From Anaerolineae bacterium (lineage in GTDB: Bacteria > Chloroflexota > Anaerolineae > UBA4142 > SHND01): a stretch of DNA of 64,000 nt. The notes under the pieces are model-generated. The model was not told the DNA's origin. It was given only the letters and a program-made list of their open reading frames with translations, and ran no database searches. Location of the stretch: contig JADZCJ010000140.1 of the NCBI GenBank assembly GCA_020851635.1, positions 124,001 through 188,000 of the forward strand, in the 5' to 3' direction. The position numbers and the translations under genes were made by a program. Positions 7,981 through 47,126 of the stretch are shown in pieces (position 1 is the stretch's first letter; every line of letters starts with the position of its first letter).

Positions 7981-8008
7981 TTGACACACCTCTATCTTTT
8001 CTTATAAT
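7981..8008 (+). promoter_or_regulatory. Sigma-70-type promoter upstream of pdxS
   Basis: Perfect -35 TTGACA (7981-7986), 16-base spacer and perfect -10 TATAAT (8003-8008). It points at pdxS, which starts about 180 bases further on. The -10 box lies inside the palindrome at 8001-8015, so a repressor bound there would block RNA polymerase. Confidence 0.8.
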
Positions 8009-8015
8009 GTGTAAG
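8001..8015. promoter_or_regulatory. Candidate operator CTTATAATGTGTAAG (regulon palindrome)
   Basis: A CTTAY-N5-GTAAG palindrome, extended by flanking T and A runs, overlapping the -10 hexamer. The same motif covers the -10 box of the BlaI/CopY-family repressor gene at 15799-15813 and appears by other copper genes in the window. The binding protein is inferred, not shown. Confidence 0.6.
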
Positions 8016-8186
8016 AAATCAGATGTTTCTTTCAAGACATCCTTCTACGTACTCAAAATTACAAAGATGCGCTGGCCAACTATATCCTCGTAACAACGAG
8101 CATCAAGGCGTCTAGATGTCAATTTAAAAGGAGCTGCGAAAACTCATTTCCCCGCACCTGGCGGGCGCAGCCAAAGGAGTTTTAAA

Positions 8187-9074
8187 ATGGAAAAGAAAAC
8201 CGGCACGTGGGCGGTCAAGGTCGGACTCGCGCAAATGCTCAAGGGCGGCGTCATTATGGATGTGACGAACGCCGAGCAAGCGAAAATCGCCGAAGATGCG
8301 GGCGCATGCGCCGTGATGGCGTTGGAACGGGTGCCCGCCGATATTCGCAAGGATGGCGGCGTGGCGCGGATGAGTGATCCGCAAATCATTCTGGATATCA
8401 TGGACGCGGTCACGATTCCCGTGATGGCTAAAGCGCGCATCGGACATTTTGTCGAAGCGCAGCTGCTGGAAGCGCTCGGCGTGGATTATGTGGACGAGTC
8501 TGAGGTGCTGACGCCCGCCGACGAAGAAAACCACATTGATAAGAATCAGTTCAATGTCCCGTTTGTATGCGGGTGTCGGAATTTGGGCGAGGCCCTGCGG
8601 CGTATCAGCGAGGGCGCGGCGATGATTCGCACCAAAGGCGAAGCAGGCACGGGCGATGTGGTAGAAGCGGTACGACATGCGCGCAGCGTGTTGGGTGAAA
8701 TCCGACGCTTGCAAAATATGCGTCCCGAAGAGTTGTATCACACCGCAAAGGAACTGCAAGCGCCCTATGAATTGGTGCGCGAGGTGGCGGAAACAGGCAA
8801 ACTGCCCGTGGTGAATTTTGCGGCAGGCGGAATTGCAACACCCGCAGACGCGGCGTTGATGATGCAGTTGGGCGTCGAAGGGGTTTTCGTCGGCAGCGGC
8901 ATTTTCAAATCGTCCGACCCCGCAAAGCGCGCCAAAGCGATTGTGATGGCGACCACGCATTTCAATGATCCCAAGATTCTGGCGGACGTCTCGCGCGGTC
9001 TGGGTGAACCCATGAGCGGGATTGCCGTGCGAACGATGGCGGAAGCGGAACAGCTGGCAGTGCGAGGTTGGTGA
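8187..9074 (+). CDS. pdxS: Pyridoxal 5'-phosphate synthase subunit PdxS (Pdx1)
   Basis: Makes vitamin B6 (PLP) from ribose 5-phosphate, glyceraldehyde 3-phosphate and ammonia supplied by PdxT. The 295 residues match the usual length and cover the whole TIM barrel. Key residues: Asp25 in [10 protein letters not shown], the two catalytic lysines Lys82 (VMAKARIGH) and Lys150 ([12 protein letters not shown]), and the phosphate-binding loop [20 protein letters not shown] followed by GSGIF. The ribosome-binding site AAAGGAG precedes ATG 8187. pdxT follows after 58 bases. The promoter carries the CTTAY-N5-GTAAG palindrome, which may place B6 synthesis under the metal-linked repressor (inference). 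Confidence 0.98.
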
Positions 9075-9132
9075 ACGCAAAGAGGGAGGAAAGACAATTT
9101 CTCTCCTCCTCCTGTCTTCTCACTTCTGATCT

Positions 9133-9717
9133 ATGAAAATTGGTGTTCTGGCATTACAAGGCGCGTTTCGCGAACATGTCGAGATGCTACGTGGAATGAA
9201 TGTGGACGCGATTGAAGTGCGCTTGCCCGAACAGTTGATCGAGGTAGAAGGACTAATCATTCCGGGAGGTGAGAGCACGACGATCGGGAAAATCGCGACG
9301 CAGTACGGACTGATTGAACCGATTCGCGAGATGGTCGCACAGGGCAAGCCCGTTTGGGGAACGTGCGCGGGAATGATTGTGCTGGCTAAAGATGTGGGCA
9401 TGCGACAGCCGTTGGTGGGCGTGATGGATGTGACGGTGAAACGCAATGCGTTTGGACGGCAGGTGGATTCGTTCGAGACGGACCTGAACATTCCTGCGAT
9501 TCAAAACGGCGACCCCGCGCCGTTTCACGCGATTTTTATTCGCGCGCCGTTTATCGAATCGGTCGGTGAAGGGGTTCAGGTGTTGGCGCAATTGGAGAAT
9601 GGAACGATCGTGGCGGCGCGACAGGGAAACCTGCTGGTGACGAGTTTTCATCCCGAATTGACGCGGGACGCGCGGTTTCACGAATTTTTTCTGAAAAGTC
9701 TTACAGTAAAAGAATGA
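9133..9717 (+). CDS. pdxT: Pyridoxal 5'-phosphate synthase glutaminase subunit PdxT
   Basis: Glutamine amidotransferase that hydrolyses glutamine and channels ammonia to PdxS; twelve of each form the PLP synthase complex. The 194 residues show the class-I-type triad: Cys78 in VWGTCAGMIVLAKD, His173 and Glu175 in TSFHPELTRD. The family motif GGESTTIGKI is present near residue 46. It follows pdxS directly and is surely co-transcribed. No strong ribosome-binding site is seen before ATG 9133; the 58-base gap is rich in GA and CT tracts. Confidence 0.98.
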   Translation: MKIGVLALQGAFREHVEMLRGMNVDAIEVRLPEQLIEVEGLIIPGGESTTIGKIATQYGLIEPIREMVAQGKPVWGTCAGMIVLAKDVGMRQPLVGVMDVTVKRNAFGRQVDSFETDLNIPAIQNGDPAPFHAIFIRAPFIESVGEGVQVLAQLENGTIVAARQGNLLVTSFHPELTRDARFHEFFLKSLTVKE

Positions 9718-9825: not shown

Positions 9826-9840
9826 CTTACACATGGTAAG
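9826..9840. promoter_or_regulatory. Palindrome CTTACACATGGTAAG at the start of a secreted-protein gene
   Basis: A perfect CTTAC-N5-GTAAG inverted repeat of the regulon type, but it overlaps the ATG at 9833 and has no clear promoter around it. If the mRNA is leaderless it could still act as an operator; otherwise it may be chance. It is weaker than the sites at -10 boxes. Confidence 0.35.
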
Positions 9841-13760: not shown

Positions 13761-14519
13761 TCAATGGGTCTCGTGTCTTGAGCGTACTAAAAACAACCCG
13801 ACACCAACCAGAAGGAGACCCCCTATGATTGCGGGGTAGCTTGGATCGAAATCGCTGCCTGTTTGAGGCAACGTCGAGGGTCCGTTTTCTCCTTGAGTTG
13901 CTGTTCCATTCGCCGCCGGAGTTGCTTGGACAGCGGTCGCGCTGACGCTATACCACTGCGCAAGCCACGTTTGCATCTGATCAATCTCCTGCCGCTGAGA
14001 CGAAACAATATTTTGGCAGAGATTCTTGAGTTCTTGATGCTCCGCTCGTTGCAAACAGGGAGTTGCTTCCTGAATCGCGGTGCTGTGATGTTCGCTCATC
14101 ATTTCCATGAACATCTTGTCGAACTCGTCGCCGCTAACCGCGTTCAAATGGCTCATCATCTGTTCACCATCTTGCATCATCATCGGCGGCTTGTCGATTT
14201 GATACCAACCGGACAGCCACGACTGCATGTCTTGAATCTCTTTGGTTTGGCTGTCAATTATACTCTGGCACATTGTGCGCAGTTCATCATGCGTTGCTTT
14301 TTGCAAGCATACGGTTGCCATTTCGATTGCCATGTGATGATGATCAATCATCATTTGCATAAAGTCGGTTTCAAACTTGGCAGTTTCGGGGTCTTGTGCG
14401 GGTCCGTTTGCAGATACGGTTGAAACCCCTAACAGGGACACAAACAAAAACCCAATGGCAAGTAGAATTGCCGGTTGCAGCGATCGCTTGTTCCGTTTTG
14501 AGGCGTATTGTCGAATCAT
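13761..14519 (-). CDS. DUF305 copper-related protein with LPQTG sortase anchor
   Basis: 252 residues: signal peptide (about 12-37), two DUF305 repeats, then a linker and a C-terminal sorting signal. Repeat 1 has FMQMMIDHHHMAIEMATVCL and repeat 2 has FMEMMSEHHSTAIQEATPCL; these Met/His-rich helices are the copper-binding signature of DUF305/CopM-type proteins. The end reads LPQTGSDFD, a hydrophobic helix and RSRHETH, a full LPxTG signal, so the protein is expected to be fixed to the cell surface by a sortase (one lies at 22147). Second gene after the copper-storage protein; AGAGGA precedes the ATG. A role in surface copper binding is inferred. Confidence 0.92.
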   Translation of the reverse strand: MIRQYASKRNKRSLQPAILLAIGFLFVSLLGVSTVSANGPAQDPETAKFETDFMQMMIDHHHMAIEMATVCLQKATHDELRTMCQSIIDSQTKEIQDMQSWLSGWYQIDKPPMMMQDGEQMMSHLNAVSGDEFDKMFMEMMSEHHSTAIQEATPCLQRAEHQELKNLCQNIVSSQRQEIDQMQTWLAQWYSVSATAVQATPAANGTATQGENGPSTLPQTGSDFDPSYPAIIGGLLLVGVGLFLVRSRHETH

Positions 14520-14601
14520 AATTTGGTTGTCCTCTAGGGTACAGCCAATGGGCAGAGCTGATAGGATCTGTGTTGTTGTCAGGTCCGCCCATCAACACAC
14601 G

Positions 14602-14970
14602 TCACATCCGCTTTGCCATACTTGCCATTTGTTGACAGGATTCGGCGCAGCGGCGGCAAATTTCAGCGCATTCCTTCATTTGTGCGTCGTCGCCAAACTG
14701 TTCACAACTCTCGGCGCATCGCGCGCATACCTCCGCGCAAACGCCACATATTTGTGGATGCACGTCGGATTCGCGCAACATAAAATCCGCACTTGTAATG
14801 CAGATTTGCGCGCAGTCGCGCAGCAACCGCAAGTGTGTTGGCTCGACGTGCTTCCCGCCCATTTGCGTACAGTGCACGGCGGTTCGTTCGCAAATGCGAT
14901 GACATTCCAAGCAGTTTTCAACGCACTGCTCCATTTCACTGCTCATCGCATGACCTTGGTGCTGGGGCAT
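14602..14970 (-). CDS. csp: Four-helix copper storage protein (Csp/DUF326 type)
   Basis: 122 residues with 16 cysteines spaced as CxxxC and CxxC along helices, for example CVENCLECHRIC near the start and CAEICRRCAESC near the end. This is the pattern of the Csp family, whose four-helix bundles store many Cu(I) ions inside the tube. No signal peptide is visible, pointing to a cytosolic Csp3-like form. Start at ATG 14970, with AAGGAGG eight bases upstream; a longer frame to 15102 would cross the promoter. The upstream region holds a CTTAY-N5-GTAAG palindrome, so copper-linked control is likely. Leads the operon with the DUF305 gene. Confidence 0.93.
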   Translation of the reverse strand: MPQHQGHAMSSEMEQCVENCLECHRICERTAVHCTQMGGKHVEPTHLRLLRDCAQICITSADFMLRESDVHPQICGVCAEVCARCAESCEQFGDDAQMKECAEICRRCAESCQQMASMAKRM

Positions 14971-15014: not shown

Positions 15015-15031
15015 GTTGTACGCTGTACAAC
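15015..15031. repeat. Short palindrome GTTGTAC-GCT-GTACAAC in the csp leader
   Basis: A perfect 7-bp inverted repeat with a 3-base centre, 44 bases upstream of the csp ATG. It could be a second operator or an RNA hairpin in the leader. No matching copy was noticed elsewhere in the window. Confidence 0.5.
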
Positions 15032-15061
15032 GGCGCCCTATGCTGGTTATGACGAAGAAAT

Positions 15062-15076
15062 CTTATAAGACGTAAG
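15062..15076. promoter_or_regulatory. Candidate operator CTTATAAGACGTAAG upstream of csp
   Basis: The regulon palindrome. Read on the minus strand the region gives TTACGTCTTATAAGATTTC, in which TATAAG can serve as a -10 box for csp, again inside the palindrome. Same arrangement as in the promoters of the repressor gene and pdxS. Confidence 0.6.
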
Positions 15077-15090
15077 AACTGGTTGGGCGA

Positions 15091-15134
15091 AATGAAAAAC
15101 ACGTCGGAGAAATTTCTCCGACGTGTTTTTCATT
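15091..15134 (-). terminator. 44-bp perfect palindrome, terminator of the LPQTG protein gene
   Basis: Positions 15091-15112 are the exact reverse complement of 15113-15134. The core is ACACGTCGGAGAAATTTCTC, with runs of A at one end and T at the other on either strand. It lies 21 bases past the stop of the leftward gene at 15155 and just upstream of the csp promoter, so it probably insulates the two units. Confidence 0.8.
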
Positions 15135-15154: not shown

Positions 15155-15631
15155 TTAGAATATGGGCCGATGGACTGCAAGAACGATACCGGCAATTAGC
15201 AATAGCAAACCCAGAATCAGAGGGATGCCAATTGAGGGTATAGCTGCACCCGTTTGCGGCAAGGGTAAAACAGGAACGCCGGTGATGGATGCACTACCTG
15301 ACCCTTGATCGCCGCGCGCGTCGAGTTCCACACTCGAGAGGGGTGCTACCTCCAAACCCGTATCGAGTTCAAATGCGCCCTCCGCATTGGCTGTAGCGGT
15401 AAAGGTGTGCGCACCACTGTCAATCGTCACATTAATAGTAACGTTTTCATTTGGCTTGAACCCTGCGCCCAAGACCTTTAACTTGCCGTCACCGAACGAT
15501 GGGGTTATTTCAGTGCCGACATCTTGTGCATAGGCAACTCCCCCAATCAGTGACAAGACTGCAAGTAGCAACACGGCTATCGATATGAGCAGACCTATAC
15601 GGCGTTGTATTCTCAACTTGAATTGTGCCAT
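15155..15631 (-). CDS. Secreted LPQTG-anchored surface protein
   Basis: 158 residues: basic N-terminus and signal helix (GLLISIAVLLLAVLSLIGGV), then a beta-rich domain (ITPSFGDGKLKVLGAGFKPN, NVTINVTIDSGAHTFTATAN) resembling an Ig/carboxypeptidase-regulatory-like fold, then LPQTGAAIP, a hydrophobic helix and a basic end. This is a complete sorting signal like that of the DUF305 protein. ATG 15631 is preferred over GTG 15637 because GGGAGG sits at a better distance. It is divergent from the BlaI-type repressor gene. Function unknown; no metal motif is visible. Confidence 0.8.
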   Translation of the reverse strand: MAQFKLRIQRRIGLLISIAVLLLAVLSLIGGVAYAQDVGTEITPSFGDGKLKVLGAGFKPNENVTINVTIDSGAHTFTATANAEGAFELDTGLEVAPLSSVELDARGDQGSGSASITGVPVLPLPQTGAAIPSIGIPLILGLLLLIAGIVLAVHRPIF

Positions 15632-15777
15632 CTCCACGTGCCTCCCGGAAAAGTTGTTTGATTTTCTGTTCCAATAGACATTTGAAGTTGTAAGTTGCTG
15701 TGCCTCCTACGGTGCAGGTCGTATATTATGAGGACGGCGGTCGAGAGATTATAGTTCCCGAAACAAAGTCGTATTGT

Positions 15778-15806
15778 TTGACAAGTTAAGACGGAATTCC
15801 TATAAT
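15778..15806 (+). promoter_or_regulatory. Promoter of the BlaI/CopY-type repressor gene
   Basis: Perfect TTGACA (15778-15783), 17-base spacer, perfect TATAAT (15801-15806), 28 bases before the repressor ATG. It is overlapped by the regulon palindrome, as expected for autorepression. Confidence 0.85.
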
Positions 15807-15813
15807 GCGTAAG
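15799..15813. promoter_or_regulatory. Candidate auto-operator CCTATAATGCGTAAG
   Basis: The regulon palindrome (one mismatch in the left arm) directly over the -10 box of the repressor's own promoter. This placement is the main reason to name the downstream BlaI/CopY-family protein as the binder. Confidence 0.65.
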
Positions 15814-15834
15814 AATTAGACACCGGAGCGGATT

Positions 15835-16254
15835 ATGCCACATAAATTTAGCATTCCCCAATTCAAGTTGAATCATAAGGGGATGGCGCGTTTCCTTGGG
15901 ACGCTGGAAGCCCGTATCATGGAAATTGTTTGGAAAAAAGAGACTGTCAGCGTCCAAGAAGTGTGCGACAAGATGGGCAAAGGGACGAATTATAAAACCG
16001 TCATGACGGTGATGAATCGGTTGGTTGAGAAAGAATTCCTGGAACGCAAAAAGGTGTCACGCGCGTTTGTTTATTCCGCGCGCCTGAATCGCGTCGAATT
16101 TCTTGAACAGGTATCTCATCAAATCGTCACGGGCCTGGTCAGTGATTTCGGTGAATTGGCAATGGCACAATTTGTCGATGTACTCGGTGAACAAGACCCC
16201 GACGCCCTGGAAACGTTGCAGAAACTAGCAAAAGAGCGTAGTGAACAAAAATAA
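15835..16254 (+). CDS. BlaI/MecI/CopY-family transcriptional repressor
   Basis: 139 residues of the Penicillinase_R family. The winged helix-turn-helix shows LGTLEARIMEIVWKKETVSV, then GKGTNYKTVMTVMNRLVEKE and the wing FLERKKVSRAFVYSAR. The C-terminal part is helical and should dimerise. In this family a repressor is either released when cut by a partner protease (BlaI) or when it binds copper (CopY). The CopY Cys pair near the C-terminus is absent here, which favours the protease route. An M56 protease gene follows after 3 bases. Likely master regulator of the CTTAY-N5-GTAAG sites (inference). Confidence 0.92.
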   Translation: MPHKFSIPQFKLNHKGMARFLGTLEARIMEIVWKKETVSVQEVCDKMGKGTNYKTVMTVMNRLVEKEFLERKKVSRAFVYSARLNRVEFLEQVSHQIVTGLVSDFGELAMAQFVDVLGEQDPDALETLQKLAKERSEQK

Positions 16255-16257
16255 GCG

Positions 16258-17226
16258 ATGGCAGCTCATTTGAATTCAGTCTCATCAAATCTGCCACTCC
16301 CGGCGGAGAGAGTCGCGAACCGGCTCCTCGCTGGTCTCATCGCGTTCGGCGTCAGTCTGCTCCTGCTGCTCCTCATTGTCGTAGCCATGTTCGCCGAGAC
16401 GCTCGTGCCGCATGTGATCGAGTTTTGTTTGTTGGCATGGCAAACCATGTCCATTGACTTTGCCTATCGACTGATGTTTTTGGGGTTGATTGTTCTCACC
16501 CTTACGGAAATCGCTTTTCTGGTGAGGCTGTGGTGGCATGCCCGCTTGACGGAACGTCATGTGCAAAAACTTCTTTTGAAAAAAGGGCAGCCGACACCGA
16601 AACTTGCCTCTATCTTACATGAGCTCGGTCTTTCATCGCGGGTGGATTTCGTTGCGTTGCCTCAGCCCTTTGCATTGTGTTACGGTTGGCGTGCGCCGCG
16701 TGTTTTGGTGACGACGGGGCTGACGGAATCGTTGGATGAGATAGAGTTGCGCGGCGTTCTCGCGCACGAAAAGTATCATCTGATGCAACACGATCCATTA
16801 AAGATTCTCATTGCCCGTGCGTTGCGAGATGCCATAATCTTTTTCCCCGTCCTCAATGATCTTTTAGAAAACTACCTCCTATTACAAGAAATTGCGGCAG
16901 ATCAAACGGCCGTAGACGCGGGCGCTACGCGCGCCGCACTCGCCAGCGCGCTCATCAAGGTCTTTCGGTCGCCGGTGTGGGACACATTGGGTGTGGGTGC
17001 TTATACAACGTTTGGCGAACGGGTCGAGCATCTGGCGAATCCGCAGCGAAGGTTTGTGTGGCGCTTTTCATGGGTGCGCGCCGGTATCAGTGTTGTAGCT
17101 GGGATATTACTCTTGCTTGCTGTGTTACACCCTATGGCGCCGATGGCGCTGGGCGAAGCATTACACGCCGATTGCCATCATGTTGCGGTTTTGGACATCA
17201 AGTCACTCGTACCTTCACACACCTGA
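16258..17226 (+). CDS. M56/BlaR1-type membrane metalloprotease without sensor domain
   Basis: 322 residues with four hydrophobic segments: two near the N-terminus, a weak one around the protease core, and one near the C-terminus (ISVVAGILLLLAVLHPM). The zinc protease motif is HEKYH in GVLAHEKYHLMQHDPLK, with the downstream Glu in LLLQEIAADQTAVD. BlaR1 and MecR1 carry a large extracellular penicillin-binding domain after the last helix. Here only about 25 residues follow, with HADCHH among them, a plausible small metal-binding tail. It probably cleaves the repressor encoded just upstream when a signal, perhaps copper, is sensed (inference). Confidence 0.88.
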   Translation: MAAHLNSVSSNLPLPAERVANRLLAGLIAFGVSLLLLLLIVVAMFAETLVPHVIEFCLLAWQTMSIDFAYRLMFLGLIVLTLTEIAFLVRLWWHARLTERHVQKLLLKKGQPTPKLASILHELGLSSRVDFVALPQPFALCYGWRAPRVLVTTGLTESLDEIELRGVLAHEKYHLMQHDPLKILIARALRDAIIFFPVLNDLLENYLLLQEIAADQTAVDAGATRAALASALIKVFRSPVWDTLGVGAYTTFGERVEHLANPQRRFVWRFSWVRAGISVVAGILLLLAVLHPMAPMALGEALHADCHHVAVLDIKSLVPSHT

Positions 17227-17244
17227 TTTTTTTTACTTGGAACT

Positions 17245-17259
17245 CTTATCAAGAGTAAG
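17245..17259. promoter_or_regulatory. Candidate operator CTTATCAAGAGTAAG
   Basis: A perfect-arm regulon palindrome followed by AAATC, as at the pdxS site. It lies in the 133-base gap after the M56 gene and 101 bases before the next gene. A clear -35/-10 pair is not obvious; TTGGAA upstream could be a weak -35 box. It may govern the 17360-21712 cytochrome-related genes. Confidence 0.5.
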
Positions 17260-17359
17260 AAATCACTAATTGAATGGTGGCGGTTACGTTCCTACGTCGA
17301 TCCGAGTCCCAAGGAGATGAGGGATACGGGTACCGACAATTGATTGCGGGGCTAGTCTC

Positions 17360-17707
17360 ATGGATCAAGAAAAAATTCGGGCGTGGCTCTTACGCTGTGT
17401 TATTTGTCTGGCGCCGAGCGCGGTGATACTTGCTGTCATCTATTCGGGCGCGGGTTTGCATATGCCGTCGTTCGAGCTGTCGTGGCACAACGACTTGGTG
17501 TTCGCGCTGCTCGTCATTGCGTTCTTTTTGCCGTTGACCAAATTGCCTCTGTTATTTCTGCACGCGGAGCAACAATCGTTGTGTCTGCTTGACGACTGGG
17601 CAAGTTACAACAAACAGGAACGCGCGGCGCAGAGTGAGATTCTTGAACGGCGACTCAACGAATTGAGTGTTGAAGGTTCACTTCCAGTGATGGACTCGAT
17701 CAAATAA
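17360..17707 (+). CDS. Small membrane protein of unknown function
   Basis: 115 residues: two likely transmembrane helices (LLRCVICLAPSAVILAVIYS and DLVFALLVIAFFLPLTKLPL) and a charged, helical C-terminal tail with coiled-coil character (KQERAAQSEILERRLNELSV). I do not recognise the family. It is first in a close-packed row leading into the Asp-box protein, a TlpA-type oxidoreductase and CcmF, so a link to cytochrome assembly or membrane copper handling is possible. No cysteine motif typical of CcmH is present. Confidence 0.7.
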   Translation: MDQEKIRAWLLRCVICLAPSAVILAVIYSGAGLHMPSFELSWHNDLVFALLVIAFFLPLTKLPLLFLHAEQQSLCLLDDWASYNKQERAAQSEILERRLNELSVEGSLPVMDSIK

Positions 17708-17712
17708 GATCA

Positions 17713-18609
17713 ATGGCGCAAAGTAAAAAACGCGTGACGTCGCAAACGGTGTTCAGACGAAGGCTTTGGATTATTCTTGCGGTCGTAGCACCTGGCGCAG
17801 TTGCTGCCTTTGCGTGGTGGTTCGCGTCGTCTGCGACCGATTCTAGGCCGCTCGCCACCTTGAACACCCGCGATTATCACTCACTCGCGTTCCACCCGAA
17901 CAATCCCGATGTGCTCTATTTTGGGCATCATGGCGGGATGATGCAGAGCAGCGACGGGGGTAAAAGTTGGATTCCACTTGCGTCGCTTCAACAAGATGCT
18001 ATGTCTATTGCCATTCCTCGCGATGATCCGAATGTAATCACCATCGCAGGGCATGACGTCTTGAGTCAGAGCAATGATGGTGGGAAAACATGGCGCCCGC
18101 TCACGACGAATCTGCCAGGCACGGACATTCATGCGTTCGCCGTGAATCCCACCAACGCGCGCGAATTTTACGCGTTCGTTGCGGGATTCGGCTTGTTCAA
18201 AAGCGACGATGGCGGCGCGATGTGGACGAGTTTGAACCGCGCCGTTCCACCAAGCACAACCAGTATCGCGATTCGCGCCGACGCGCCACAAACGATTTTT
18301 CTCGGCAGCGGACAGCAAGGGTTGTTCGAGAGCGGTGATGGTGGTGTGACGTGGACGGGCATTCCCTCGAACACGTTTCAATCGGCAATCGCGCTTGCGT
18401 TGAATAACCAGAACGAATTATTTGTCGCAACCGAGCTAGGCGTTTTCAAGAGCGCGGATAGCGGCGCGACTTGGACGCGGTTGAATGTGGACACGGACGT
18501 TGCGCTTGCGCTCGCCATCAGTCCCTCGAATCCACAGCGTCTCGCGGTTGTGAATGACAAAGGTCAAGTCTTTCGCAGCGATGATGGAGGCGCGACGTGG
18601 GGCCAATGA
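17713..18609 (+). CDS. Membrane-anchored Asp-box (BNR/YCF48-like) beta-propeller protein
   Basis: 298 residues with an N-terminal membrane anchor (about 19-38), then six repeats with the Asp-box pattern: [40 protein letters not shown] and SDDGGATW. These fold as a propeller outside the membrane. The family includes sialidase-like and photosystem-assembly-like proteins, but the repeat alone does not imply enzyme activity, and no sialidase active site is evident. The stop overlaps the next gene's ATG (ATGA), so it is coupled to the TlpA-like oxidoreductase. A scaffold role in the envelope is inferred. Confidence 0.85.
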
Positions 18610-19190
18610 GTGACGGGTTGACGTTGACGGAGAAAAAACCGCGCCGCGCCTCGTTTTGGATGTTCGTCGGAATGTTTGCGGCGATTGGGATTGTGCTTGC
18701 GCTGCTCGCTTGGGCAGTGCAATCGAAAAGCGCGCCGCCACTCGCGTCTGGTATCGCGCCCGATTTTTCTCTTACCACGTTCGACGGGCAAGACATTAGA
18801 CTGTCGGAACTGCGCGGCAAACCTGTCATCATCAATTTTTGGGCATCGTGGTGTGTACCTTGTCGTACTGAGGCGCCACTGCTGGAACGGATGTGGCGCG
18901 ACTACCGCGAGCGCGGAATTATCCTGTTGGGAGTGGATTATGTGGACACGGGAGACGCGGCGAAGCAGTTCATTCATGAATACCGCATGACGTACCCGAA
19001 TGGACCGGATCTCGGTACTCGCATCTCGCAATCTTATCGCCTTACGGGTGTGCCCGAAACGTACTTTATCACGCGTGAGGGAAAAATGTTGGGCGGAATT
19101 GACGCGAACGGACGCGCGAATGCGAATTGGATTGGACCGATTTCCGAAGACGCGCTGCGCGAACGAATTGAAAGACTATTGAGTGAGTGA
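18606..19190 (+). CDS. TlpA/CcmG-like thiol-disulfide oxidoreductase
   Basis: 194 residues: an N-terminal membrane anchor ([20 protein letters not shown]) and an extracytoplasmic thioredoxin fold with the redox motif WCVPC in [20 protein letters not shown] and the cis-Pro region [10 protein letters not shown]. Proteins of this type reduce apocytochrome c or copper-site cysteines. Start at ATG 18606, which overlaps the preceding TGA; GTG 18597 is less likely. CcmF follows after 9 bases, so it most likely acts as the CcmG-type reductant in cytochrome c maturation. Confidence 0.93.
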
Positions 19191-19199
19191 GGAGAGCTC

Positions 19200-21215
19200 A
19201 TGAACACACTCGGTTCCATTTCCCTTACCGTCGCGCTCGTCGTGGCGATTTATGCGGCGGTTGCTGGATTCATCGGCGGACGACGAAATATTCCTGAATT
19301 GGTTGATAGTGCGCGCAATGGCGTGATTGTATACGCCGCGCTCACGACGATTGCGTTTTTTGTAATTATTTATGCCTATGTCACGCGCGATTTTTCCCTC
19401 TCGCTTGTGGCAAACTCTTCCTCGCGCGATTTGTCGCTCTTGCTCACTTTAACAGCGATATGGTCAGGCCAGGCGGGGTCACTTTTGTTTTGGTCGTGGA
19501 TCTTGTCGCTGTATGGCATTACCGCCGTTTTGAGAAATTGGAACCTTGACCGCGGCCTGATGCCCTATGTTATTGGGGTGCTGATGGCGTTGCAGGTGTT
19601 TTTCGCGTTCATGTTGAATTTTATTTCCAGTCCTTTCAAGTTAATGGAGGTGATTCCTCTCGATGGCGCGGGCTTGAATCCGTTGTTGACACATCCGTTG
19701 ATGTCGGCGCATCCGCCGCTCTTGTATTTGGGTTACATCGGTTTCACGATCCCTTATGTTTTCGCGATGGCGGCGCTGATCAGTGGGCGTATCAGCGACT
19801 CTTGGATTCGCGCGACGCGGCGTTGGACACTGATCGCGTGGATGTTTTTGGGAATCGGTTTGCTCGTGGGTGGACGATGGGCCTATGACGTGTTGGGCTG
19901 GGGCGGCTATTGGGGTTGGGACCCTGTGGAAAACTCCGCGTTGATGCCGTGGCTCGTCGGTACTGCATTTTTACATTCGGTGATGGTGCAAGAACGCAAA
20001 GGCACATTAAAGGTCTGGAATCTCGGGCTCATCATTCTTGCGTTCACATTGACGGTGTTTGGCACGTTCCTCACGCGCAGCGGCATTATTCAGTCAGTTC
20101 ACGCGTTTGCGACTTCGGAGGTGGGAGCATGGTTCCTCGGATTCATAGCGCTGGTCGCGCTCGCTTCGATGGCACTCCTCTTTTATCGCCTGCCGCTGCT
20201 GCGCACAGAATCCGAGTCACCTGCTTTTCTTTCGCGCGAAATGTTATTTCTGCTCAACAATGTTCTGTTTCTTGGCGCGGCGATGGCGATTATGATTGGG
20301 GTGATTTGGCCTCTGATCAGCGAGCTCATCACGGGACAAACACTGACCGTCGGTCCACCGTACTTTAATCTTGTTATTGGTATCATCCTTGTTGGCATCT
20401 TTTTGTTGATGGGGGTTATTCCTCTCATAGGGTGGGGGGGCGCGACATTAAGCCGGTTAGGCCGCAAAGTCATGGCGCCCCTTCTGTTCACCGTACTTTT
20501 TGTCGGACTGACATTCGTTTTGGGAAACCGCGAACTCCTTCCCTTGTTCGGCATGGCGCTCGTGGGATTTGTGATATTCACGACGCTCGCCGATATCTAT
20601 TGGGCATCGCGCGCGCGGCAAAAGAATACACGCGAAAATTTGTTTGTGGCGTTTGGACAGTTATTGAATCGCAATCATCGGCGCTATGGCGGTTACCTGG
20701 TGCATCTCGCCGTTGCAATCATGGCGATTGGCATCATCGGTTCCCGTAGTTACGCGACGGACCAAGTGCGCGCCCTTCAGATTGGGGATAGTTGGAGCAC
20801 GACCGACTACACCATTGTATTTGAAAAGTTTACTCCCAACATTCCCAATGGTGAAGGGATCACGACACAAGCCACGTTAGGTGTCTATCAGGACGGCAAC
20901 CGCGTCACGACGTTAACCCCATCCGCGACATACTACCCGCGCCAACAGCAAAACATGACCGACCCGGCAATCTATGGCGACGCGCCTTTGTATCGCCGTG
21001 ACGTATATGCCATCATTCAAGGATGGGAAGATAATTTCGAATACGTGAGTTTTCGCGTGTTTGTGAACCCTATGGTCGCATGGGTGTGGCTGGGTGGAAT
21101 CCTTTATATGTTAGCCGTCTCAGTCACGATGTTTCCCGATCCACAGGAGAATAAATCGCGTACACGGAATTTTGTAGAACAAAACGCGTATACGTTTGCC
21201 AAACCGAGTGAGTGA
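19200..21215 (+). CDS. ccmF: Cytochrome c heme lyase subunit CcmF
   Basis: 671 residues, about the usual length of CcmF, with many transmembrane helices. The tryptophan-rich heme-binding segment reads WGGYWGWDPVENSALMPWLV (WWD domain), followed by the conserved VWNLGLIILAFTLTVFGTFL and TRSGIIQSVHAF. A C-terminal extracytoplasmic region (about 530-625) precedes the last helix. CcmF transfers heme from CcmE to apocytochrome c. No CcmA-E genes are in the window. GAGGAG precedes ATG 19200. It is coupled to the next gene, a cytochrome c, by a TGATG overlap. Confidence 0.96.
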   Translation: MNTLGSISLTVALVVAIYAAVAGFIGGRRNIPELVDSARNGVIVYAALTTIAFFVIIYAYVTRDFSLSLVANSSSRDLSLLLTLTAIWSGQAGSLLFWSWILSLYGITAVLRNWNLDRGLMPYVIGVLMALQVFFAFMLNFISSPFKLMEVIPLDGAGLNPLLTHPLMSAHPPLLYLGYIGFTIPYVFAMAALISGRISDSWIRATRRWTLIAWMFLGIGLLVGGRWAYDVLGWGGYWGWDPVENSALMPWLVGTAFLHSVMVQERKGTLKVWNLGLIILAFTLTVFGTFLTRSGIIQSVHAFATSEVGAWFLGFIALVALASMALLFYRLPLLRTESESPAFLSREMLFLLNNVLFLGAAMAIMIGVIWPLISELITGQTLTVGPPYFNLVIGIILVGIFLLMGVIPLIGWGGATLSRLGRKVMAPLLFTVLFVGLTFVLGNRELLPLFGMALVGFVIFTTLADIYWASRARQKNTRENLFVAFGQLLNRNHRRYGGYLVHLAVAIMAIGIIGSRSYATDQVRALQIGDSWSTTDYTIVFEKFTPNIPNGEGITTQATLGVYQDGNRVTTLTPSATYYPRQQQNMTDPAIYGDAPLYRRDVYAIIQGWEDNFEYVSFRVFVNPMVAWVWLGGILYMLAVSVTMFPDPQENKSRTRNFVEQNAYTFAKPSE

Positions 21216-21712
21216 TGAAATCCCTCGTCATTGCGACGTTGTCAATTGTCATTTTCCTACTCTCCGGCTGTGTGTCTGAGCCTCCGCTCGTCAATCAATA
21301 TGGCACCGCCGTCCCGCCGCTTCCAACATTAGATTCGTCCGCAGTCCTGCGCGGGAAACAAATCTATCAGCTACACTGCGCAATGTGTCATGGCGGCAAC
21401 GCAGAAGGCGCGGTGAATTGGAAAGTGCCGGACGAGAATTTGAACTATCCACCACCACCGCACGACGACACGGGCCACTCGTGGCATCATCCCGATCGCG
21501 TAATCTATGAAGCGATACGGGAAGGCCTTCGCGATTCACTGCGCCCGGATCAACCGGTTCGAATGCAGTCTTTTGGCGAAAAATTGAGCGACGCTGAAAT
21601 TCGGGCGGTGTTGACGTATTTCAAGAGTTTGTGGTCACGCGAGCACCGCGAGTTTCAATATCTGCGTACGACAGAAGACGAGATCGAAAATCCGACCCCA
21701 CACGCGCCCTAA
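21215..21712 (+). CDS. Class I c-type cytochrome, lipoprotein
   Basis: 165 residues: lipoprotein signal peptide with lipobox LLSGC, a Pro-rich linker, then the heme-binding motif CAMCH in IYQLHCAMCHGGNAEG. A likely axial Met is in RMQSFGEKLSDAEIRAVLTY, a usual cytochrome c C-terminal helix region. One heme. Start at ATG 21215, sharing a base with the ccmF stop. It is probably a substrate of the maturation genes before it and a small electron carrier on the outer face of the membrane; the partner is unknown. Confidence 0.93.
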   Translation: MKSLVIATLSIVIFLLSGCVSEPPLVNQYGTAVPPLPTLDSSAVLRGKQIYQLHCAMCHGGNAEGAVNWKVPDENLNYPPPPHDDTGHSWHHPDRVIYEAIREGLRDSLRPDQPVRMQSFGEKLSDAEIRAVLTYFKSLWSREHREFQYLRTTEDEIENPTPHAP

Positions 21713-21757
21713 AATGGGAGCGCGCATACAAGAATTCAAGAATGATAACATTTGAAT

Positions 21758-21804
21758 GAGGGCGACTCCGCCGCAAGTCCGAAGCCCTCTCCGCGTAAGA
21801 GGGC
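21758..21804 (+). promoter_or_regulatory. Alternative hairpins before the 21818 gene
   Basis: GCCCTCT at 21784-21790 can pair with AGAGGGC at 21798-21804 (7 bp, loop CCGCGTA), or its first six bases can pair with GAGGGC at 21758-21763. The downstream hairpin ends just before the AAAGGAG ribosome-binding site. It could modulate translation, or it may be a common intergenic repeat. Confidence 0.4.
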
Positions 21805-21817
21805 GAAAGGAGAACGT

Positions 21818-22150
21818 ATGCAGAACACGTCACACTATTTGCATCACATCTTTATCCGCGTCGTGGTGCCAGATTTCGGCGCGTGGTATCGTGAACATGT
21901 TAATCAAGCAAAGGCGCGGGCAACGTATGGGCTCATGGATGGCCCCATCTATCGTGAGTTGGATAATCCCAACGCCGCACTCGTGCAGCTCGACACCAAC
22001 GATGTGCCAAAAGCACTCAAATGGTTCAAAACGGCCGAGTTTCGGGAAGCGTGTCTAAGTACGCAGGTGCAAGCCCGCGAGTTTTATGACACGGCGTGGC
22101 GCAAAGTGCGACGCGGGAGTTATCGCAAGTCGTCGCGTTCGTCAAAATGA
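21818..22150 (+). CDS. Small cytosolic protein, possibly ABM/dimeric alpha-beta barrel type
   Basis: 110 residues beginning MQNTSHYLHHIFIRVVVPDF. Start at ATG 21818, set by AAAGGAG. The order of predicted strands and helices (HHIFIRVVV, AWYREHVNQAK, NAALVQLDTND, PKALKWFKTAEFREA) suggests a ferredoxin-like alpha-beta fold as in antibiotic-biosynthesis-monooxygenase-type domains, but no firm family was recognised. The C-terminus is strongly basic (VRRGSYRKSSRSSK). The stop overlaps the sortase ATG (ATGA), so expression is coupled. Function unknown. Confidence 0.7.
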   Translation: MQNTSHYLHHIFIRVVVPDFGAWYREHVNQAKARATYGLMDGPIYRELDNPNAALVQLDTNDVPKALKWFKTAEFREACLSTQVQAREFYDTAWRKVRRGSYRKSSRSSK

Positions 22151-23010
22151 GGATTCGATCCGTGGATTCGCGCAAGGTCAGTCAAATCTCCCTCGCGGAA
22201 TTAGAGACAATTCTCGAAATGCGCCGCCGTGTGGAACGTGCGCGCACACAGACAGATGCAGTACGGGTTTCGCGAATACAATGGCAGCGCAGCGCATTCC
22301 TGCTGCTTGTTGAAATCATTGCGCTTAGCGCGTTCGTCCTTGTGCTTGGGCTGATCTTGTGGAATCTCCGGACGCTCAATCAATTCAGCGTAATAACGCG
22401 TACGGAGGCAATTCAAGCGCAAGAGGAAGGACTGACAATTGTCACAAGTGCGCGACCTTTAATACATGAACTCCCCGGCTCTTCGTTCCCACCGCCGGAT
22501 TTGTATGTGCGGGAATTGCCCGGGTCCTCTTTTGCGCCTGAATCGACTTTTCCTCCTGCCCTCGGGGTTCTGGGTGTACGCGCGCCGGTGGCGGCGTCTC
22601 CACTTGCGCCGACACCCAGCCCCGACTCGCCGTCACGGATCACGATTCCTGCAATTGCAATCGATTCGCCTGTTGTCGCCGGCGACGATTGGGAAGCGTT
22701 AAAGAAAGGCGTAGGCCATCGCATCGGAACTCCGAATCCGGGCGAGCGCGGCAACATGGTCATGTCGGGGCACAACGACGTGTATGGCGAAGTCTTTCGC
22801 GACCTCGATAGACTGGAGGTGGGAGCGGAAATTGTCGTGTATGCAGGCAGCCGCAAGTTCCGATACGTCGTACAAGCTCGCCGCATCGTCGTTCCAAACG
22901 ATTTGAGTCCACTCAAACCATCGCGCGAATCTATTCTCACGCTGATCACTTGTTGGCCCTATCGCGTGGACAATTTTCGATTAATTATCATCGCGCAGCT
23001 CGCTGCGTAA
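22147..23010 (+). CDS. srt: Sortase (class D/E-like transpeptidase)
   Basis: 287 residues: cytoplasmic N-terminus, one transmembrane helix (FLLLVEIIALSAFVLVLGLI), a Pro-rich stalk and a C-terminal sortase domain. Catalytic residues: His209 in VMSGHNDVYG, Cys269 in the TLxTC motif (LTLITCWPYR) and Arg278 in VDNFRLIII. Sortases cut LPxTG-type signals and join the protein to a cell-wall amine. Two LPQTG proteins (13761 and 15155) are in the window and are the natural substrates (inference). The stalk has a curious repeat, HELPGSSFPP and RELPGSSFAP. Start at ATG 22147, overlapping the preceding stop. Confidence 0.93.
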   Translation: MRIRSVDSRKVSQISLAELETILEMRRRVERARTQTDAVRVSRIQWQRSAFLLLVEIIALSAFVLVLGLILWNLRTLNQFSVITRTEAIQAQEEGLTIVTSARPLIHELPGSSFPPPDLYVRELPGSSFAPESTFPPALGVLGVRAPVAASPLAPTPSPDSPSRITIPAIAIDSPVVAGDDWEALKKGVGHRIGTPNPGERGNMVMSGHNDVYGEVFRDLDRLEVGAEIVVYAGSRKFRYVVQARRIVVPNDLSPLKPSRESILTLITCWPYRVDNFRLIIIAQLAA

Positions 23011-34614: not shown

Positions 34615-34642
34615 TTGACAATCCTCTTAATTGTTGTAAGAT
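34615..34642 (+). promoter_or_regulatory. Promoter of the csoR-copA operon
   Basis: TTGACA (34615-34620), 16-base spacer and TAAGAT (34637-34642). It points to csoR (34719). Between and over the boxes lies the regulon palindrome, and just downstream a CsoR-type G-tract operator, so two regulators may act here. Confidence 0.7.
34626..34640. promoter_or_regulatory. Candidate operator CTTAATTGTTGTAAG
   Basis: CTTA-N7-TAAG palindrome of the regulon type, between the -35 and -10 boxes of the csoR-copA promoter. Confidence 0.55.
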
Positions 34643-35007: not shown

Positions 35008-37602
35008 ATGACCGGCGACGGACGTGATTACTTTGGTCCGTCATGGGTTGCTCGTCGGCAAATTAAAATGGCTACTCAACAAATCGTTTTACCCATTAAA
35101 GGCATGACCTGCGCGAGCTGTGTCGCGCACGTAGAACATGGATTAAAGGACACCGCAGGGGTGGAAAAGGCGGTCGTGAACCTTGCCACCGAACGCGCTA
35201 CCGTTCAGTACGATCCAGAAAAAGCCACCGTCCCGGATATGTTGTGGCATGTTCAGGATGTTGGTTACGACGTCCTTACCGACACAGTGGACCTGCCGTT
35301 GGCAGACGTGGCAGATGCAGGGAAAATCATAACTGCTTTGAAAGCCGTGCCCGGTGTGTTGAACGCGACGGTTACGAATAACCAGGCAGCTGTTCAGATT
35401 ATTCCGGGTGCAGCGACCATTGGCGATCTGCGGGCCGCGATTGAAGAAGCGGGCGCGCATGTTGCAGATGATGTAAATGGCGTGCCGATTGCGGAACCCG
35501 TTGACCGCGAAGCACAAGCGCGTAGACGCGAACTGGAACGAGAACGGACCAATCTCATCGTCGGGGTTGCGTTCACCGTGCCATTGTTCCTGCTGGCAAT
35601 GGCGCATGACCTTTTGCACAGCGTATGGATGACTAATTCCACGCTGAATGCATTTTTTACCTCGCCCTATTTTGGCTGGCTCTTGATGCTGCTGGCGACG
35701 CCGGTCCAATTTTATGTGGGACGCGCCTACCATGTTGGCGCGTGGAAAGCCATTCGACACCGCACTGCAAATATGGACGTGCTGATTTCAATCGGCACGA
35801 ATGCCGCCTATTTTTACAGTGTGCTGGTCTTGATCGGCGTAGCACTTGGCATTGACTTTGGTGATCATGTGTACTTTGAAACGGCCGCCGTAATCATCAC
35901 ACTGATCAAAGTCGGAAAATATCTCGAAGCGCGCGCCAAGGGCGAGACGAGCGCGGCCATCAAGAATTTGATGAATCTCACGCCTAAAACCGCGCGCGTG
36001 ATTCGCAAAGGCGTTGAAAGCGAAATTCCCGTGAATGCGGTGCGCGTGGGCGATGTAATGCTTGTGCGCCCTGGGGAGCGCGTGCCGGTAGATGGAGTGC
36101 TTCTCGACGGCGCCTCCAGTGTGGACGAGTCCATGCTGACCGGCGAAAGTATTCCGGTTGAAAAACACATTGGCGATAAGGTGATGGCCGGCACGGTGAA
36201 CAAGACCGGCGCGTTCACCTTTGAAGCGCGCAAGATTGGCAAAGAGACCGCTCTCGCGCAAATCGTAAAACTTGTCGAGGAGGCTCAAACCTCCAAGGCG
36301 CCCATTCAAAAACTCGCCGACCAAATTTCTGCGGTTTTTGTGCCGATTGTGCTGGTTATCGCGCTCCTTACCTTTGTGACCTGGTTGATTTTCGGTCCTT
36401 CGCCGGCCTTTACCTTTGCGTTGACCAATGCCATTGCGGTGTTGATTATCGCCTGCCCGTGCGCGTTGGGTCTTGCGACACCGACTGCCATCATGGTCAG
36501 CACCGGCAAGGGTGCAGAACTCGGCGTGCTCATTCGCAGCGGCGAAGCGCTTGAGACTGCGCACAAACTCAACACCATTGTGCTCGACAAAACGGGCACA
36601 CTGACGCAGGGTAAGCCAATGGTCACGGATGTTGTCATCGCACCGACAATGCGCGTGCCGCAGCTCGCAACCGCGGGCATTGGTGTTGCGTCGAGCGATG
36701 GACAGATGTCGCAGGGCGAGTTAATAAAACTGGTTGCGTCGGCGGAAAAATTCAGCGAGCACCCGGTCGGGCAGGCGATTGTGGATTATGCAAATGCAAA
36801 AGGACTGTCGCTGGCGCCGGTGGTGGATTTTGGCGCGCTCGCCGGTCATGGGATTCACGCGCGCGTAGATTCGCGCGAGGTCGTCATTGGCAACGACAAG
36901 TTGATGGTGGACCAAAAAGTGAATACCGTCGCGCTCGACAAACTGGCGCAAAAGTTGGCTGGTGAGGGCAAGACGCCGATGTTTGTCGCCGTGGACGGGC
37001 AAGCGGCAGGTCTCATCGCCGTCGCGGACACGCTAAAAGTCGAAGCACGCGCGGCCGTCCAAGCACTGCAAAAAATGGGCATTGACGTGTACATGCTCAC
37101 CGGCGATAACGAACGCACGGCCGCTGCAATCGCAAAACAAGTGGGTATTACAAATGTGATTGCCCAGGTGCTGCCCGAACAAAAAGAGCAAAAAGTGCGC
37201 GCCCTCCAAGCGGAAATGAAAGGGAATGACAAACGCGTGGTGGCAATGGTCGGCGATGGCATTAACGACGCGCCCGCGCTCGCGGCGGCAAATGTGGGCA
37301 TCGCGCTGGGGACCGGAACGGATGTCGCGATGGAAGCGGCAGACATCACCCTGATGCGCGGCGATTTGCGCGGCGTGGTGACGGCGATTCAACTTTCGCG
37401 CGCGACGATGCGGACGATTTATGTAAATTATTTCTGGGCGTTCGCGTACAACGTCGCGGGAATTCCGATCGCAGCGGGTCTGCTGTATCCATTTTTTGGC
37501 ATCCTGCTGAGTCCGATCATTGCAGCGGCAGCGATGGCGTTTTCGAGCATCTTTGTGATCACAAACAGCTTGCGGCTGCGGAATTTCAAGCCGCAGATTT
37601 GA
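35008..37602 (+). CDS. copA: Copper-exporting P1B-type ATPase CopA (first)
   Basis: 864 residues. N-terminal HMA domain with [15 protein letters not shown]; a second HMA-like domain (about residues 93-155) has lost its CxxC motif. Then eight helices with the Cu(I) site CPC in [15 protein letters not shown], the TGES actuator loop, phosphorylation site [19 protein letters not shown] in the nucleotide domain, and [14 protein letters not shown]. Exports Cu(I) from the cytosol. Start taken at ATG 35008; ATG 35068 (MATQQIVLP) is possible and would give a more usual N-terminus. Second gene of the csoR operon. Confidence 0.97.
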
Positions 37603-39084: not shown

Positions 39085-40425
39085 ATGCAAGGACACGATC
39101 ACAGCCGAATGACCGAGGGCGACGCAAAAGAAAAGGGAAAATCGGACGCCGAAAATATGCCCGAAATGGATCACAGCAAGATGGGTGGACCCAACCCGGA
39201 CAAGATGAAAACGTCCGACGCGGAAAAAATGGCTGCGATGGATCAGAGCAAATTGCAGACAGCGGGCGACAGTGAAATGGCAGGGATGGATCATGGCACG
39301 ATGGATTTGAGTGCTGCCACGCGTGCGACGCAGGCACAAAAATTCGCATGGGCGTTCCTCTCCGTGGTACTGCTCGCCGCGGGACTGATTTTTTCCGCGA
39401 CCGTCGTGAATTTGAATTTGAGCGCGCGCGATGTTGGCGGCGCTATTATGCCGCCGGGGATGATTATGCTGCGGGATACGCCCGGCGAATCCATGCGCGA
39501 CATGTCTGCGGTAGACCCACGGCACGTCAGTTACACCGCACCTGCGAATGCCCAGGGGGATAGTGAACTGCAGCCGCGTATCGAGAACGGATTCAAAGTG
39601 TTTGACCTCACCACTTCCGTAATCAAATGGAATATATTGCCCTACAAACAGGTGATGGGCTATGCGTTCAACCAACAAATTCCGGGTCCGCGCTTGCGCG
39701 TCACCCAGGGCGATCGCATCCGCATCAACGTGACAAACCAGTTGCCCGAATCCACAACGGTTCACTGGCATGGTTTGATTTTGCCCAATGCCATGGACGG
39801 TCCTGCCGAGATTACTCAAGCCCCGATTCCAACGGGGGGATCATTCACATACGAATTTACCACCCAGCAGGCAGGCTCGTACTTTTATCACACGCACGAT
39901 CACCCTGACCGGCAACAGGCCTTGGGCTTGTACGGCGCGCTGATTATTGATCCCGCGTCGCCGCAAAACATTCCGGCGTACGATCTCGAGTACACCATAC
40001 AATTGCAGGAATGGCTCGAACGCGAGGGCTATACCTTTCCCGCGATGTTGATGGAAGGTGGGTTGCCCAACTATTTCACCATCAACGGCAAAGCCTATCC
40101 GCCCACGGATACGATCAACATGAAGGTCGGGCAAAAAATACGGATTCGATTCATTGGTACGAACAACAACTTTATTCATCCGATGCACATTCATGGCGGA
40201 CCCTTTACGATCGTTGAAACGGATGGCAACATCGTACCCGAAAGCGCCCGCATTGAAAAAGATACCGTGAATGTGGGTCCGGGCGAACGGTATGATGTGA
40301 TCTGGGAGGCACGCGAGTCCGGCAGATGGCTGCTGCATTGCCATATTCCGCACCATACGACAAATAATAACGTCGAAGAGGATGGGGCGGGCGGTTTGAC
40401 GATGATTCTCAACGTCACGCCATAA
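39085..40425 (+). CDS. Membrane-anchored multicopper oxidase with Met/His-rich N-terminus
   Basis: 446 residues. The first about 85 residues are polar with MDHSKM-like repeats (EMDHSKMGG, GMDHGTMDL), then one transmembrane helix (AFLSVVLLAAGLIFSATVVN) and two cupredoxin domains. Copper ligands: HWHG, HTHDH, HPMHIHGGPF and LLHCHIPHH, which supply type 1, 2 and 3 sites. Enzymes of this group oxidise Cu(I) or other substrates with O2. The Met/His-rich N-terminus should lie inside the cell if the helix is a simple anchor, an unusual place for a copper-binding tail. Followed by a YHS-domain gene. Confidence 0.93.
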   Translation: MQGHDHSRMTEGDAKEKGKSDAENMPEMDHSKMGGPNPDKMKTSDAEKMAAMDQSKLQTAGDSEMAGMDHGTMDLSAATRATQAQKFAWAFLSVVLLAAGLIFSATVVNLNLSARDVGGAIMPPGMIMLRDTPGESMRDMSAVDPRHVSYTAPANAQGDSELQPRIENGFKVFDLTTSVIKWNILPYKQVMGYAFNQQIPGPRLRVTQGDRIRINVTNQLPESTTVHWHGLILPNAMDGPAEITQAPIPTGGSFTYEFTTQQAGSYFYHTHDHPDRQQALGLYGALIIDPASPQNIPAYDLEYTIQLQEWLEREGYTFPAMLMEGGLPNYFTINGKAYPPTDTINMKVGQKIRIRFIGTNNNFIHPMHIHGGPFTIVETDGNIVPESARIEKDTVNVGPGERYDVIWEARESGRWLLHCHIPHHTTNNNVEEDGAGGLTMILNVTP

Positions 40426-45425: not shown

Positions 45426-45462
45426 TTGACAAGAGCGGCTAATATATCTTATTCTGCGTAAG
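45426..45462. promoter_or_regulatory. Promoter TTGACA with candidate operator CTTATTCTGCGTAAG
   Basis: TTGACA at 45426-45431 and a poor -10 (TTATTC, 45449-45454) at a 17-base distance. The regulon palindrome covers 45448-45462, in the same place as at the pdxS promoter. It would drive the pfkA remnant, the type II GAPDH and perhaps the CPD-type ATPase. Confidence 0.55.
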
Positions 45463-45596
45463 AAATAAACGAAAGTCAAAACCGCCATAACTCGAAGAGA
45501 TTGGACATGTGAAAACACAGGCTAAGCCCCTGCCGGCTAGCGCGCCATTTTGTCGGGGTTGAACCAGCTAGGTAGCTCATACGTTTTTGAGGGCAC

Positions 45597-46046: not shown

Positions 46047-47105
46047 ATGGCAACGCAAGTGCGAGTCGCCGTAAATGGTTATGGCGTGATTGGGAAACGG
46101 ATTGCGGATGCGGTGCGCGCGCAGGACGATATGGAACTTGTCGGCGTGGCGGACGTGGTAAGCGATTATCGCGTCAAGACCGCGGTCGCGCTCGAAATTC
46201 CCGTCTATGCGTCAGTGGCGGACAAGGCGAATGAGATGCGCGACGCGGGAATTCCCGTTGCGGGCACGCTCGATGAATTATTGAAACGGATTGATGTAAT
46301 TGTAGATGCGACGCCCGCGGGCATCGGCGCGAAGAATCTGGCGGTGTATCGCGCAGCGGGTGTGAAAGCAATCTATCAGGGCGGGGAAAAACACGCCCTC
46401 ACAGAGCATTCATTCGTCGCGCAGGCGAATTACGAGACGGCATTGGGACGCGAAGCGACACGCGTCGTATCATGCAACACAACTGCGACAGTGCGAACGT
46501 TGGGCGCGTTGAAAAACGCGGGCTTGTTGAAAAAAGCGCGCGGCGTCCTGATTCGCCGCGCATCAGACCCATGGGAAGCGCACAAAGAAGGAATCATGAA
46601 CACCCTTGTTCCCGAAAAGCAAATTCCGAGTCATCAGGGTCCCGATGCAAAAACAGTCATGCCCGATTTGGATGTAGTGACGCTCGCTGCCAAAGCCGCC
46701 CACAATTCGAGTCATGGGCATTTTTGGATCGTGGAGCTGACACACAATGCATCAAAAGACGAGGTGCTTGCCGCTTTCCGCGCCGCGCCGCGCATTGCCT
46801 TTATTCGAATGAGCGATGGTATTGCCGCGCTCAATTCGACGATTGAGTTGATGAGCGATTTAGGGCGTCCGCGTGGCGATATGTGGGAAGTGGCGATTTG
46901 GGAAGATGTGCTGACCGTCGAGGGCAACGAGTTGTACTACACCTATCAAGTGTACAACCAGGCGGTTGTCTCGCCCGAAAACGTCGATGCGATTCGAGCG
47001 TTAAGCGGGATCGAACGCGATGGTGCGCGCTCCATCGAAAAGACAGATCACGCTTTGGGTATCTTGCAAGAATTTTTGCCGCGCGCAGGACAAGTGTCTG
47101 CATAA
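46047..47105 (+). CDS. Type II (archaeal-type) glyceraldehyde-3-phosphate dehydrogenase
   Basis: 352 residues. Converts glyceraldehyde 3-phosphate with NAD(P) and phosphate to 1,3-bisphosphoglycerate. Rossmann start VRVAVNGYGVIGKRIADAVR, then DATPAGIGAKNLAVY, catalytic Cys143 in VSCNTTATVRTLGALK (the SCNTT motif of type II enzymes), and HNSSHGHFWIVEL. This form is usual in archaea and rare in bacteria, though known in some Chloroflexota and other lineages. AGGAGG precedes ATG 46047. It follows the pfkA remnant in the same unit and precedes a copper ATPase. Confidence 0.95.
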   Translation: MATQVRVAVNGYGVIGKRIADAVRAQDDMELVGVADVVSDYRVKTAVALEIPVYASVADKANEMRDAGIPVAGTLDELLKRIDVIVDATPAGIGAKNLAVYRAAGVKAIYQGGEKHALTEHSFVAQANYETALGREATRVVSCNTTATVRTLGALKNAGLLKKARGVLIRRASDPWEAHKEGIMNTLVPEKQIPSHQGPDAKTVMPDLDVVTLAAKAAHNSSHGHFWIVELTHNASKDEVLAAFRAAPRIAFIRMSDGIAALNSTIELMSDLGRPRGDMWEVAIWEDVLTVEGNELYYTYQVYNQAVVSPENVDAIRALSGIERDGARSIEKTDHALGILQEFLPRAGQVSA

Positions 47106-47126
47106 ATGGAACCGGTGGAGGTCAGG

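Follow-up and report, generated by a model that had tools for sequence, protein, structure and literature searches.

The window, a 64,000-nucleotide stretch of an Anaerolineae contig, carries two neighboring genes on the minus strand whose products are both members of families associated with copper. The first, csp (14602-14970), encodes a Csp3-type cytosolic copper storage protein, and the second, lying 82 nt downstream (13761-14519), encodes a CopM-family DUF305 protein of 252 amino acids. On the other side of csp is orf3 (15155-15637, minus strand), whose product is secreted, belongs to no known family, and carries its own LPQTG sorting signal. Divergent from orf3, on the plus strand, are a gene for a BlaI/MecI/CopY-family repressor (15835-16254; Pfam Penicillinase_R, 2e-25) and, adjoining it, one for an M56/BlaR1-like membrane metalloprotease (16258-17226). 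These genes are part of a larger copper-resistance island that includes two Cu-translocating P-type ATPases (35008-37602, copA-like, and 47106-49670, both plus strand), a multicopper oxidase-like protein (39085-40425, plus strand), CopI-like and CopZ-like genes, and an array at 17360-23010 that encodes an ORF of unknown function, an F510_1955-like protein, a TlpA-like protein, CcmF, cytochrome c, a further ORF, and a sortase.

The csp reading frame starts with an ATG at position 14970, preceded by the strong ribosome-binding site AAGGAGG, and its 122-residue product contains exactly 16 cysteines, in agreement with an earlier note on this DNA that had described a Csp-type protein with that number. 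The product matched solved Csp3 structures (PDB 3lmf, 2.6e-29; RkCsp3, 3.6e-22), and each of its 16 cysteines, which form the ladder lining the four-helix bundle, aligned with a cysteine in RkCsp3 and NmCsp3. Because of this alignment we assign the protein, on sequence grounds, to the RkCsp3 subgroup of cytosolic copper storage proteins (PMC10155185). The resemblance to that subgroup (PDB 6ZIF, 3LMF) extends to length and to the absence of a signal peptide: the N terminus, MPQHQGHAMSSEMEQC, as read by eye, has no hydrophobic stretch and so no apparent export signal. It differs in that the RkCsp3 ligand Met46 is replaced by leucine and in that csp adjoins a CopM-type gene.

The DUF305 protein has a hydrophobic N terminus that is a putative signal sequence. 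Scores of 179 bits against the Pfam DUF305 profile (cut-off, 27) and 95 bits against the NCBIfam CopM profile (cut-off, 90) agreed with sequence comparisons, in which the protein was similar to CopM structures. In its predicted structure (mean pLDDT, 78) most of the helical bundle exceeded a pLDDT of 95, and the best eight PDB matches returned by Foldseek were all CopM (E values of 6e-8 to 1e-6; target TM scores of 0.84 to 0.88). By profile, by similarity to known structures, and by predicted fold, the protein is thus assignable to the CopM family. Its first helical repeat keeps the CopM metal-site residues M57, H60, H61, and M67, and the second keeps M141, H144, and H145, with Glu151 at the position of Met67. 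The earlier note had drawn attention to a double DUF305 protein; both repeats are present, but CopM itself contains two DUF305 domains (PMC4335983), and we therefore rejected the duplication as a special feature.

CopM of Synechocystis PCC 6803 (PDB 5FEJ, 5FFC), which acts partly outside the cell and limits cellular copper (PMC4335983), shares with the window protein the two-repeat fold, a signal sequence, richness in histidine and methionine, and a copper resistance context. However, CopM is soluble, in the periplasm or medium, and has neither cysteines nor a sorting signal, whereas the window protein has four cysteines and ends in a predicted LPQTG anchor, and its gene is partnered with one for a Csp3 protein. 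The cysteines form two C-X12-C pairs (C71/C84 and C155/C168), one at the turn of each helical hairpin, and could serve either as disulfide staples or as additional copper ligands. Both pairs are common to the genus and to one distant Chloroflexota relative (L070:1020-1463) and are absent from CopM and most DUF305 proteins. This restricted distribution, together with nearby genes for TlpA, CcmF, and cytochrome c under another operator copy, would fit a redox or delivery protein that uses the cysteine pairs in cytochrome or cuproenzyme maturation and is not a copper sink. We consider such a role improbable, given that the protein keeps both HH motifs along with its predicted CopM fold and that cysteine pairs placed across a helical hairpin are equally suited to structural disulfides.

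Beyond the repeats and a linker, a sorting signal occupies residues 216 to 252 of the DUF305 protein (13764-13874, minus strand). As the earlier note had claimed, it is complete, consisting of LPQTG, a predicted hydrophobic helix (residues 227 to 251), and the basic tail RSRHETH, and it scored 29.5 bits against the TIGR01167 LPXTG_anchor profile (cut-off, 15.9). Absence of the tail from close homologs had been named as grounds for abandoning the idea of surface anchoring. In the one close homolog compared, an orthologous DUF305 protein encoded by a congeneric metagenome-assembled genome (G003, contig CALMZO010000441.1), the LPQTG motif, helix, and basic tail are all intact. The orthologs are 65% identical over residues 12 to 208 (HMMER) and 59% identical over the full alignment; the DUF305 domain is 74% identical, with changes at the three codon positions of 0.14, 0.18, and 0.46, an excess at the third position that is the pattern expected under selection. 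The tail is kept in the congener, and it is the highest-scoring LPXTG anchor match in the whole genome; we therefore rejected a frameshift or a chance match as its origin.

A C-terminal hydrophobic helix could also act as a plain membrane anchor that sortase leaves uncut, so that the protein would be held at the membrane's outer surface, as its lipoprotein relatives are. Tethering is common among those relatives, in which N-terminal lipid or transmembrane anchors are frequent, a C-terminal helix is predicted, and its sequence is poorly conserved between the congeners. Yet it is LPQTG that is invariant across the two species while the helix and tail around it have diverged to 32% identity, and the genome encodes sortases and a second LPQTG protein alongside the first. 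A simple membrane tether is, in our judgment, unlikely, and we favor cleavage at LPQTG and attachment to the cell wall.

Three sortases in the genome scored above the profile cut-off and have the catalytic motifs. The one inside the window (22096-23010, plus strand) carries TLITC...R and SGHN, and the nearest models were those of class D, with scores below their cut-offs. Four further LPxTG-type proteins are encoded: orf3, a protein with LPDTG, a CopC-like protein whose sorting signal is LPATG (L147:865-1611, contig C119 of G000), and a c-type cytochrome-like protein with a C-terminal LPATG (L146:1498-2505, contig C111 of G000). The last contains one CxxCH and one near-motif and had no NCBIfam match. 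With these four proteins and three sortases, it looks as though the organism routinely anchors copper and redox proteins through LPxTG.

To assess how rare this arrangement is, we surveyed two samples on the Chloroflexota side, of about 400 genomes each (one for the phylum and one for the class), and, outside Chloroflexota, 46 DUF305-related loci and one plasmid record. Sorting signals were absent from the other Chloroflexota DUF305 ORFs read in the two samples (more than 100) and from the 46 loci of other phyla; a regular-expression match to MPMSG in L180 was rejected because it lies in a methionine-rich repeat, and a match on a Rubrobacter plasmid yielded no legible DUF305 tail. Where an anchor could be recognized, the other DUF305 proteins were lipoproteins or N-terminally membrane anchored, the rest being unassigned. 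Among the sampled genomes and loci, then, DUF305 proteins bearing a predicted sorting signal were seen only in the genus of the source genome. The open-access literature yielded no paper joining DUF305 with LPXTG and no relevant statement on sortase, which agrees with the earlier note's suggestion that a sortase-anchored DUF305 protein had not been described.

Expression of the pair appears to be governed by a short operator. The earlier note's candidate operator before csp was borne out as two conserved elements, each with 0.00 copies expected by chance. One, TCTTACGTCTTATAAGA (15061-15077, minus strand), is an instance of the 17-bp pattern TCTTACN6TARGA; the other, the palindrome TTGTACGCTGTACAA (element TTGTACNNNGTACAA; 15016-15030), lies between this operator and csp and is conserved before csp in the congener. 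The 17-bp pattern was derived from two sites, those before csp and before the repressor gene, leaving four sites as independent occurrences. It occurs six times in the window, against 0.00 copies expected, and all six are intergenic; across the 5.8-Mb genome these six are the only copies, and the reversed-pattern control gave two. In the congener the pattern is found on both contigs examined, before csp, the repressor gene, orf3, and other genes.

All six copies are on the minus strand. In addition to the one heading csp-DUF305, they stand between the divergent orf3 and repressor genes (15798-15814), before the array that extends from 17360 to the sortase gene (17244-17260), before the first Cu-ATPase gene (34625-34641), before the pair formed by type II GAPDH and the second Cu-ATPase (45447-45463), and before the pdxS-pdxT unit and the genes at 9833 and 10805 (8000-8016). 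Four of the six (15798, 34625, 45447, and 8000) overlie the -10 element of a promoter-like TTGACA-N16-18-TATAAT pair, and two of these promoters are perfect; the pair before the repressor gene is a consensus TTGACA-17-TATAAT (15778-15806), and that at 8000 has a spacing of 16. A consensus -35 element for csp was not found. The vitamin B6 synthesis genes pdxS-pdxT (8000-9717) lie behind an operator over a perfect promoter, and the type II GAPDH gene directly abuts the Cu-ATPase gene (46047-49670) with an operator copy in front.

These six operators, confined to the copper island together with a gene for a BlaI/CopY-type repressor, appear to constitute a compact copper regulon. The arrangement resembles that of CopY/BlaI-type copper repressors, with a BlaI/MecI-family repressor beside copper genes and operators placed over promoters. 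The operator box of CopY is TACANNTGTA. The TCTTACN6TARGA operator of the window differs from that box, and an M56 protease gene is adjacent to the repressor gene. Against the CopY_TcrY profile the repressor scored 48 bits, below the 122-bit cut-off, and it is accordingly a member of the superfamily that is not filed as CopY. Because this score is well below the cut-off, copper is suggested as the inducer by genomic context; we infer that the repressor binds TCTTACN6TARGA and responds to copper.

The 82-nt gap between csp and the DUF305 gene holds no strong terminator, and the two genes probably share one transcript. Shared regulation of the pair, which the earlier note had proposed, is supported by the presence of both genes in the copper regulon with an operator before csp. 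Between orf3 and csp lies a strong, symmetric terminator-like hairpin (15091-15134; z, -9.5), and we therefore dropped orf3 as the first gene of the transcript; the congener has a hairpin of different sequence at the same place. There, orf3 stays beside csp-DUF305 even though the module sits elsewhere, next to a Cu-ATPase gene.

Whether the two genes also act together is a separate matter, since their adjacency could be incidental, two independent copper resistance genes having settled in one copper island without a joint function. Among 400 Chloroflexota genomes csp was present in 23 and DUF305 in 65, and the genes were side by side only in the source genome and one other. In the congener, the csp copy beside DUF305 is truncated at its 3' end while the anchored DUF305 gene is intact, and a second csp copy, adjacent to blaI, is interrupted by a stop codon and lacks sequence between two RCAESC repeats (the two broken genes are at L087:3384-3700 and L085:13481-13798; both come from metagenome-assembled sequence, in which assembly error is possible). 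The notion of the pair as a fixed functional unit was thus not supported, both checked congener csp copies being broken and the anchored DUF305 gene whole. Against mere coincidence, another Chloroflexota family has the order csp-DUF305(lipoprotein)-copZ-copA, with a CopZ-like gene and a copA encoding two metal-binding domains, and six loci of Nocardia have a DUF305 lipoprotein gene no more than about 4 kb from csp, on the opposite strand. Incidental adjacency is a serious possibility that in our estimate falls short of an even chance. Because proximity recurs in these other lineages while in the congener sequence csp is broken and DUF305 kept, the pairing appears from comparative sequence to be recurrent but not obligatory.

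The reading that we favor, with a probability of roughly 0.6, is that csp and the DUF305 gene form one copper-inducible unit of a copper resistance island, in which Csp3 buffers copper inside the cell and a wall-fixed CopM-type protein binds it outside. According to this model, the BlaI/CopY-type repressor (15835-16254) probably acts on the TCTTACN6TARGA operators to keep the unit off until copper, directly or through the neighboring M56 protease, lifts repression. The Csp3 protein would then buffer or trap cytosolic Cu(I), while the CopM-type protein would leave the cytosol through Sec and, once a sortase had cleaved it at LPQTG, be attached to the cell wall. There its helical bundle, with His-His and Met motifs, would bind copper outside the membrane as the Cu-ATPases export the metal. 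A more ambitious version, in which one repressor switches on a copper-inducible wall barrier composed of the Csp store, two LPQTG proteins (the CopM-type protein and orf3), and a dedicated anchoring sortase expressed from the array behind the operator at 17244, is offered tentatively and seems to us rather doubtful. The sortase may lie on the transcript starting at 17244, as suggested by close, codirectional spacing and by terminator-like and promoter-like sites that do not exceed chance.

Both protein families were known previously, and it is the predicted anchoring of DUF305 by LPQTG, seen in our samples in this genus alone, that seems to be new. The lipoprotein DUF305s of Chloroflexota and Actinomycetota have the same domain and, in a single-membrane cell, probably the same location on the outer face; they hold a lipid or N-terminal membrane anchor where the window protein has LPQTG, so that the sorting signal would alter the mode of attachment more than the location. 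Since lipoprotein DUF305s are similarly placed and extracellular CopM is already known (PMC4335983, PMC4894872), the novelty is limited to a variant of anchoring. The findings also supply a well-defined, genome-unique candidate operator for what is probably a copper regulon, in a Chloroflexota genus without cultured members. In cyanobacteria CopM is partly extracellular, and a wall-anchored CopM, if true, would be one way to keep a metal sink at the cell surface.
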